A DNA stretch of 33,424 nt, from IMG/VR virus record IMGVR_UViG_3300013306_000040, positions 1-33,424 of that record; one strand, given 5' to 3'. Under the pieces are notes generated by a model. The model saw only the letters and a list, made by a program, of their open reading frames with translations. It did not search any database and had not been told where the DNA came from. The position numbers and the translations under genes were made by a program. The DNA comes from a virus. This document shows positions 31,319 through 33,424 of this stretch, in pieces (positions within the stretch are counted from its first letter, which is position 1; each line of letters begins with the position of its first letter).

Positions 31319-31852
31319 ATGCCTATAACTGAGCAGCAGTTGCTGCAGATCCTCCCGAACGCCGGCCGCCAAGCCGGCGTTTTTGTTCCTGCACTGAACG
31401 CCGCCATGGGCAAGTACGGGATCGTGACCAAGCTGCGTATCGCCGCATTCATCGCCCAGGTCGGGCACGAGTCGGGGCAATTGCGCTACGTACGCGAGAT
31501 CTGGGGCCCCACCGCGCAACAGGCCGGCTACGAAGGGCGTGCTGACCTAGGCAACACGGTGCCGGGCGACGGCTTCAAGTACCGTGGCCGGGGCCTTATC
31601 CAGATAACCGGCCGGGCGAACCATGCCGCGTGCGGGGAAGCGCTGGGCGTAGACCTCATCAGCAACCCTGAACTGCTGGAGCAGCCGCAGTACGCCGCGA
31701 TGTCGGCGGCCTGGTTCTGGTCGACCAAGGGCCTGAACACGCTTGCGGACCAGGGCGACTTCGTGAAGATCACCCGTCGCATCAATGGCGGACTCAACGG
31801 CCTTGAGGATCGCCTGCAGTTGTGGGAGCGCGCGAAGAAGGTGTTTGCATGA
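31319..31852 (+). CDS. Endolysin, glycoside hydrolase family 19 (chitinase-like lysozyme)
   Basis: A 177-residue single-domain muralytic enzyme. E51 (in AQVGHESGQL) and E60 (YVREIW) are the probable catalytic acid and base, and KYRGRGLIQITGRANH is the signature substrate-cleft segment. It cuts the glycan chain of peptidoglycan. No signal peptide or SAR helix is seen at the N-terminus, so it would need a holin to reach the cell wall. GGAGAAAAG lies before the ATG. It overlaps Rz by four bases. Confidence 0.93.
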   Translation: MPITEQQLLQILPNAGRQAGVFVPALNAAMGKYGIVTKLRIAAFIAQVGHESGQLRYVREIWGPTAQQAGYEGRADLGNTVPGDGFKYRGRGLIQITGRANHAACGEALGVDLISNPELLEQPQYAAMSAAWFWSTKGLNTLADQGDFVKITRRINGGLNGLEDRLQLWERAKKVFA

Positions 31853-32361
31853 CGCCGGTGCAGAAGCTGGCCGGGCTGGTGGTGTTAATCGTGGTGCTGA
31901 TGGCCGGCGCCGCGGGCGTCACCTGGCAGGTTCAGGACTGGCGGATGGGCAAGAAGCTCGCTGAGCAGGCCGGCCTGTACAAGGATGACCTGGCCGCGAT
32001 CTCCAATGCTGCCGCCAACCAGGTCCGCACCGAGCAGGACAAGCGCCTGGCAACCGAACAGGTCCTGGCCACCTCCGACCAACAACACACCAAGGAATTA
32101 TCCGATGCCCAGCGCAACCAGGCTCGCCTGCGTGATCAGCTTGCTACTGCTGATGTCCGGCTGTCAGTCCTCCTCGAGGATCCAGCCAGTGCCTGCAACG
32201 TGCCTTCCGCCGCCGGCGCCGGCGGCGTGGTTCATGCAGCCCGTCGAGCCCAACTTGACCCAGCGCATGCGCAACGAATTATCGCCATCACCGACGATGG
32301 GGATAACGCCGTGATCGCGCTGCGTGCCTGCCAGGCTTACGTCAGGGCTGTGGCCCCCTGA
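31849..32361 (+). CDS. i-spanin Rz-like
   Basis: A 170-residue protein with one N-terminal membrane helix at ~8-26 (GLVVLIVVLMAGAAGVTWQV) and a long periplasmic coiled coil (~35-110), ending in AVIALRACQAYVRAV. This is the Rz plan: an inner-membrane subunit that, with the outer-membrane lipoprotein Rz1 in the complex, disrupts the outer membrane at lysis. It overlaps the endolysin end and contains Rz1 in another frame. Confidence 0.88.
   Translation: MTPVQKLAGLVVLIVVLMAGAAGVTWQVQDWRMGKKLAEQAGLYKDDLAAISNAAANQVRTEQDKRLATEQVLATSDQQHTKELSDAQRNQARLRDQLATADVRLSVLLEDPASACNVPSAAGAGGVVHAARRAQLDPAHAQRIIAITDDGDNAVIALRACQAYVRAVAP
32105..32314 (+). CDS. o-spanin Rz1-like lipoprotein nested in Rz
   Basis: In the +1 frame inside Rz, ATG 32105 opens a 69-residue protein: signal peptide MPSATRLACVISLLLL, lipobox MSGC (LMSGC) with the Cys near residue 20, then a short Pro-rich mature part (PVPATCLPPPAPAAW), all typical of Rz1. 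It would sit in the outer membrane and meet Rz across the periplasm. The frame is open further left, but that part lacks a signal peptide and is not used. Confidence 0.87.
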   Translation: MPSATRLACVISLLLLMSGCQSSSRIQPVPATCLPPPAPAAWFMQPVEPNLTQRMRNELSPSPTMGITP

Positions 32362-32701
32362 GGACGGTCAGCTCCAGGAGAAGCCGCTGGTTTTCAACGC
32401 GAAGGTGTGAGTTCTGGCTGGCGATCATTTTAAGGCTCATGATCTCTTTGCTCTGCTCAGAGTTGTCGACGTTCGCATGGCTGAGTTGTGAGGATATCGA
32501 CCTGAGCTGTTCCTCAGCTGCGGCCTTCCCTGTGATCAATAGGTCGTTCATATGAACGAGGCCGGCAACGTTCGCTCGCGCCTTGGCCAGCTGCCGCAGC
32601 AGGTCGCTGATCTCGTCCTCGAGCATGGCGCATTGGTGCTTGTACATTTCCAGGGGCGTAGGGCATCCAAGCCACTCGCAGGTCTCTTCATCAAGGTTCA
32701 T
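32342..32701 (-). CDS. Reverse-strand coiled-coil protein, 119 aa, possibly SOS-controlled
   Basis: Read leftwards from ATG at 32701 it starts MNLDEETCEWLGCPTPLEMY, then continues as a long helical coiled coil (EDEISDLLRQLAKARANVAG, EEQLRSISSQL, HLRVENQRLLLELTVL). Cys-rich CEWLGC and a later Cys may bind metal. An upstream ATG at 32731 lies inside the LexA-box palindrome (32720-32735), so I prefer 32701, although its ribosome site is weak. Its 3' end overlaps the Rz end by 20 bases, convergently. Family unknown. Confidence 0.62.
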   Translation of the reverse strand: MNLDEETCEWLGCPTPLEMYKHQCAMLEDEISDLLRQLAKARANVAGLVHMNDLLITGKAAAEEQLRSISSQLSHANVDNSEQSKEIMSLKMIASQNSHLRVENQRLLLELTVLRGPQP

Positions 32702-32719
32702 GGCAGGGAAATCCGAGTG

Positions 32720-32735
32720 CTGTATGTGCATACAG
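32720..32735 (-). promoter_or_regulatory. LexA (SOS) box
   Basis: CTGTATGTGCATACAG is a perfect palindrome and fits the LexA consensus CTGT-N8-ACAG used by enterics and Pseudomonas LexA. It lies just upstream of the reverse-strand coiled-coil gene, where repression would be relieved on DNA damage. Confidence 0.65.
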
Positions 32736-32783: not shown

Positions 32784-32993
32784 TTACTCCGGCGCCATGA
32801 GCACTGCCAGGGTCAGTTTTATGAACTCTTCGTTCTCGTCGATGGTATGCAGAGCGCCCCGGATATTCTCGGCTACATCTGCGGAGCCGCGCTGCTCGAC
32901 CCAATTCGACAACTCCATGATGGAGGCTTCCAGGGCCAGCTGGTTTTCGTAGAGTTTAGAGAGTAGGGACGGGAGTAGGTCTGTATTCGGCAT
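32784..32993 (-). CDS. Small reverse-strand hypothetical protein, 69 aa
   Basis: A perfect AAGGAGG lies about eight bases before the ATG at 32993 (read leftwards). The protein, MPNTDLLPSLLSKLYENQLA onwards, is an acidic, all-helical bundle (ALEASIMELSNWVEQRG and ALHTIDENEEFIKLTLAVLM) without signal peptide or membrane segment. It lies 52 bases upstream of the LexA-box gene and could be co-transcribed with it. Proteins of this look recur at this place in Pseudomonas prophages, to my recollection; function unknown. Confidence 0.65.
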   Translation of the reverse strand: MPNTDLLPSLLSKLYENQLALEASIMELSNWVEQRGSADVAENIRGALHTIDENEEFIKLTLAVLMAPE

Positions 32994-33141: not shown

Positions 33142-33424
33142 TTCGGTGTGCTATTGCTGATTACTTATGACGACTTGGCCCAGCAAACACTGATCAACAG
33201 TAATCATCAGAATGCGTTTCATACCGCATGGTGATGTTAGCTGTGGAGATCAATTACTTTACCTATCAATGGGTTGCGAGCGTGGAGGCAGGAGCCTTCA
33301 GGCATGCATCAACAGCGACATCAAGGCGCGAAACCCGGTCGCTGAGCAAAAAATGGGGGATGTGTGTTGGAATTTGGCGCGCATTGTCGCATATGTCAGG
33401 CGACAGTTGTATGGCGGCCGACGA
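33142..33424. other. Gene-poor right end, possibly phage end or host flank
   Basis: No gene is supported in these ~280 bases; all frames break early. Imperfect inverted repeats occur: CTGATTACT (33157-33165) with AGTAATCATCAG (33199-33210), and ATGCG (33212-33216) with CGCAT (33225-33229). No tRNA gene end is recognisable. The exact prophage boundary cannot be placed without the left end. Confidence 0.4.

Follow-up and report, generated by a model that had tools for sequence, protein, structure and literature searches.

A conserved coiled-coil gene behind a predicted LexA operator at the end of Pseudomonas prophages, a candidate member of an exchangeable DNA-damage cassette

Prophage genes under LexA control are commonly interpreted as triggers of induction, and the classical rationale for Tum, GfoA, and GftA is a repressor unable to cleave itself. 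Tum of phage 186, AntC of N15, and GfoA/GfhA/GftA of the Gifsy prophages are small LexA-controlled proteins encoded outside the immunity region, and the Gifsy repressors, which lack the self-cleavage signature, are bound by their antirepressors (PMC3121763). In prophage P1 of Pseudomonas putida KT2440, PP_3901 is controlled by LexA1/LexA2 and was reported to be necessary for the damage induction of prophage genes, as cited in PMC4595014. PP_3901, whose locus was located via published primer sequences, codes for a DUF1654 protein (PF07867), has the LexA box CTGTCTATGCATACAG directly upstream, and lies in a prophage that carries an S24 repressor. The induction result is said to come from Abella et al. 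2007. SRAP is a DNA-damage protein that traps abasic sites. The SRAP family has been tied to SOS operons (PMC3765255).

The DNA analysed here, called the window, is the 33,424-nt stretch of the IMG/VR virus record IMGVR_UViG_3300013306_000040, and at its right end a leftward gene, X, stands behind a palindrome (Table 1). The initial annotation described this palindrome as perfect and as overlapping an upstream ATG, and proposed that it places a coiled-coil gene outside the immunity region under LexA control, possibly as a Tum-like antirepressor.

Table 1. Coordinates of the features at the right end of the window.
Feature	Position	Strand	Remarks
Endolysin gene (GH19), lysis block before X	31319..31852	+	PF00182, phrog_181
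Rz-like spanin gene	31849..32361	+	phrog_2466 E 4.1e-55, PF03245
Gene X	32342..32701	-	119-aa helical coiled-coil protein (predicted); N-terminal WLGxPTPLE motif; start ATG 32701
In-frame upstream extension from box ATG (32731)	32702..32731	-	probably untranslated leader; box ATG not conserved
LexA operator (SOS box), predicted	32720..32735	.	CTGTATGTGCATACAG; conserved in homologous loci
69-aa gene, phrog_12397, upstream of X, same strand	32784..32993	-	PHROGs E 1.7e-38
attR core, 5' end of ybiT-like (ABC-F) host gene	33223..33270	.	host DNA onward to 33424

The putative operator is the sole CTGT-N8-ACAG found by a pattern scan of the window. Its 7-bp arms, CTGTATG and CATACAG, are perfectly paired, but the central TG is not self-complementary, so that the box falls short of the perfect palindrome initially described. 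A lone match of this kind is weak evidence by itself, because 38 of 100 shuffled windows contain one too; roughly one such window in three would hold a single copy by chance, which is what speaks for a chance palindrome without any control over X. The comparison of homologous loci is decisive despite the shuffle result: among the 84 distinct X loci with upstream DNA, 80 carry an exact CTGT-N8-ACAG before the gene and three more carry it with one mismatch, at 20-44 bp from the start codon across these 83 loci (30-44 bp in all but one), whereas the pattern occurs in no more than 1.8% of 105-nt stretches drawn at random from these loci, true sites included. Moreover, the conserved block extends beyond the half-sites (CCTCGATTACTGTA....TACAGTA), and this non-coding box is kept at a near-fixed distance while the X protein diverges to ~30% identity; the comparative data already contradict the chance palindrome, which is extremely improbable. 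The single exception, L043, holds CTGTACATACAG, with a 4-bp deletion in the spacer, and offers a natural test case for the loss of LexA control. In five X-carrying host genomes, lexA1 is preceded by CTGTATAAAAAGACAG and the second lexA by AGTACATTTGTACT; at the motif level, a LexA recognising the X-box motif is therefore very likely present in the hosts, and two features of the Pseudomonas LexA regulon are found together, an operator at the promoter and, on the same motif-level evidence, a host LexA to read it. Judged from the sequence, X is very probably LexA-controlled; the initial observation holds in its essentials, and the comparison makes it firmer than the window alone could show.

The initially noted ATG does lie within the box, but it is not the gene start. 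In many homologs the box reads CTGTACGCACATACAG, without an ATG, and the ATG at 32701 is kept, so that a start inside the box was rejected and X was taken to begin at the conserved codon. Synonymous changes exceed non-synonymous ones three- to seven-fold (dN/dS 0.14-0.32), which indicates purifying selection and identifies the leftward frame behind the box as a real gene. An AlphaFold2 model of X (mean pLDDT 87) consists of a short helix followed by one helix of ~100 residues (residues 16-115), by which the coiled coil of the initial description is predicted anew, probably as a dimer, and the conservation is concentrated in the N-terminal WLGxPTPLE motif and in the first third of the long helix. 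A structure search of BFVD with X gave no match, a result that a single long helix makes little informative, and searches of Pfam, NCBIfam, PADLOC, and PHROGs returned no family explaining X. The names suggested by weak coiled-coil matches (PPP1R21_C, YabA, phrog_95 integrase, SMC, keratin, Lpp) were rejected. In GenBank, the homologs MF975720.1 VW6S_23 and OP626800.1 WHS04348.1 are named 'DarA' and 'minor tail protein', names for which Pfam, PHROGs, and NCBIfam gave no such match. The literature search found no study linkable to X.

Homologs of X are carried by the phages VW-6S, SC_8_H2H8_2017, PseuP_222, and PseuP_224, by 14 IMG/VR contigs and two genome contigs, and by 107 of 399 Pseudomonas genomes. 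Among 391 genomes of the order, strong matches were confined to genomes already within the Pseudomonas sample, and the search of the order outside Pseudomonas gave weak coiled-coil matches only, mostly in long frames. A small, helical, damage-switched protein that is specific to Pseudomonas in the genomes searched is what would be expected of a protein docking on a host partner, such as an SOS-induced brake on cell division or the cell cycle or a host-takeover protein, and the resemblance of X to YabA and similar coiled coils is weak and not significant; generic coiled-coil matches are, however, expected from its composition, and none of the known families of division inhibitors matched X in the family searches, which leaves this reading rather unlikely.

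The position of X at the prophage end agrees with the initial placement outside the immunity region, as X adjoins attR. Specifically, X lies ~0.5 kb inside attR, beyond the lysis genes, on the strand opposite to the late genes and outside the late operon, and in most longer relatives its distance to the S24 repressor gene ranges from several kb to tens of kb. From 33223 onward the DNA is found unbroken in host chromosomes, with up to 99% identity. In genomes whose right end is similar, a second copy of the 48-bp att core lies at a distance of 25-67 kb, and an empty attachment site was read in L172. The host gene at attR resembles ybiT, which codes for an ABC-F protein; the core covers its TTG start and first nine codons. 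Upon integration, a short truncated frame (LISTANITMRYETHSDDYC*) is left at attR, and the remainder of the ybiT-like gene may come under phage-side control at attL. In VW-6S, PseuP_222, and PseuP_224, X flanks the late genes at the end that faces the integrase gene, which would fit an attP placed between integrase and X. The only gene between X and attR in the window is phrog_12397, which codes for a conserved protein. It precedes X in 22 of the 86 distinct loci, and numerous prophages that carry X or the gene Y described below have it close by the LexA box, on the upstream side.

On its other side, X converges with Rz, the two 3' ends overlapping by 20 bp in the window, and in 32 of the 86 loci the two genes abut in this way, with a short overlap and nothing between them. 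Together with the single phage records that call X a minor tail protein or DarA, this contact would suit a structural or lysis-timing protein for which the LexA box merely provides early expression. Such a role is very unlikely, given that family searches do not bear out those names, that X is read from the strand opposite to the late genes and has a damage operator of its own, and that SRAP or Dam intervenes before Rz in many loci.

Downstream of X on the same strand, the gene found most often is SRAP (PF02586), which follows closely in 24 of 86 distinct loci and is absent from most X loci, the window included. Viewed from SRAP, the same slot elsewhere contains a LexA box followed by Y and SRAP or by SRAP directly. 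Gene Y (phrog_19595; L146:753-1478, also in L149, L155, L141, and L147) codes for ~241-246 aa with a C-terminal CxxC...CxxC, has no Pfam match, and replaces X before SRAP, mostly directly behind the LexA box. We conclude that the stretch from Rz to the attachment site is a cassette site, in which the LexA promoter is constant, the genes change, and X is one occupant. At L135 (G001:C1:1905704-1906054), a 153-aa frame codes for a UmuD-like S24 protein with the nearby box CTGTACGAATGTACAG, which also precedes SRAP in L144 and L154; the X gene of this P. marginalis genome lies ~40 kb away.

The initial comparison with Tum fares less well than the operator itself. X shares with the Tum and Gifsy genes the LexA box and the location outside the immunity region (PMC3121763), which would fit a LexA-controlled antirepressor or an induction co-factor that binds the repressor or aids its inactivation upon damage; in addition, PP_3901 is reported to be required for induction (PMC4595014) even though its prophage has an S24 repressor. 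The Tum and Gifsy scheme further involves a repressor without a self-cleaving S24 domain and an antirepressor matched to it, and neither is seen here. An S24 LexA/CI-type repressor with an HTH domain, presumably cleavable, is encoded in 12 of 13 X-carrying phage records, the remaining one being a 27-kb fragment; this count rests on relatives, since the repressor gene of the phage in the window lies outside the contig. Moreover, G405 and G406 encode 100% identical X proteins together with repressors without BLAST similarity, and the repressors of G403 and G406, whose X is 91% identical, are again without such similarity, a pairing that fits an immunity-independent role. The slot of X is otherwise occupied by SRAP, and PP_3901 lends X no kinship: X was rejected as its homolog, as there is no BLAST match between the two and PP_3901 belongs to DUF1654, and PF07867 matches neither X nor anything else in the window. 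Besides X, four carriers (L002 VW-6S, G003, G407, and W03) encode a DUF1654 protein of their own, at ~1-2.5 kb from the repressor gene. Taken together, an antirepressor or induction co-factor is unlikely, although X may be a broad-range antirepressor or, like PP_3901, a general helper of induction. Two further observations concern these regions: the DUF1654 gene of VW-6S (L002:893-1242) also has a LexA box, CTGTATATCCATACAG, and in one contig (L017, G004:C1:6852-7226) X is preceded at ~2 kb by a second gene for an HTH-S24 repressor, which possibly belongs to a neighbouring prophage or codes for a PrtR-like regulator.

The reading that we favour, with a probability of about 0.55, is that X heads an exchangeable cassette of DNA-damage genes, which is placed under LexA control near the end of the prophage and benefits the cell under damage or the phage DNA during its replication. 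It starts from what is observed, namely the conservation of the box, the reality of the gene, its position, and its neighbours. According to this reading, X would be the leading gene, and in the window the only one, of an SOS cassette that temperate phages of Pseudomonas carry in the interval from the lysis genes to the attachment site. LexA bound to the box would silence X during lysogeny; when RecA filaments form, LexA would cleave itself and X would be expressed from a promoter that is its own and does not depend on the phage repressor. The product, a predicted long coiled coil with the WLGxPTPLE motif and most likely a dimer, may dock on a DNA-repair or replication factor of the host or the phage and may thereby support the damaged cell, or phage DNA undergoing replication, while the SOS response lasts, accompanied in about a quarter of the loci by the abasic-site trap SRAP. 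Against this stand three points: since SRAP is missing from most X loci, its association with X may only mirror a common SOS promoter; a coiled coil is compatible with many roles; and a scan around the box found no sigma-70 promoter consensus. Taking the favoured cassette reading further, it may tentatively be supposed that X represents a new family of coiled-coil proteins, induced by the SOS response, by means of which Pseudomonas prophages act on the host damage response (e.g., on RecA, LexA, or a polymerase) independently of the repressor, in an exchangeable island shared with SRAP and Y.

The SOS operator is kept in almost every member of the X family. About one in four of the sampled Pseudomonas species carries X, and the family raises the testable question of whether prophages alter the survival of host DNA damage, apart from the induction decision. 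Compared with the known systems, X resembles Tum, AntC, and GfoA/GfhA/GftA in its putative LexA control and in its location outside the immunity region, but the Gifsy repressors are uncleaved, whereas X carriers have S24 repressors and one X pairs with unrelated ones. Like PP_3901, X is small, belongs to a Pseudomonas prophage, and immediately follows a LexA box; PP_3901, of unrelated sequence, lies beside hicAB and near the repressor gene, unlike X, which is near attR. The SRAP/YedK/HMCES operons (PF02586) are, like X, linked to the SOS response, and SRAP adjoins X downstream (PMC3765255 for the SOS link of the family), but X is a predicted helical coiled coil without an SRAP domain, and SRAP is also found behind LexA boxes without X. 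Lastly, gene Y, which the X profile does not detect, and phrog_12397 are, like X, uncharacterised occupants of the att-proximal slot, and it is Y that takes the place of X behind the LexA box and before SRAP.
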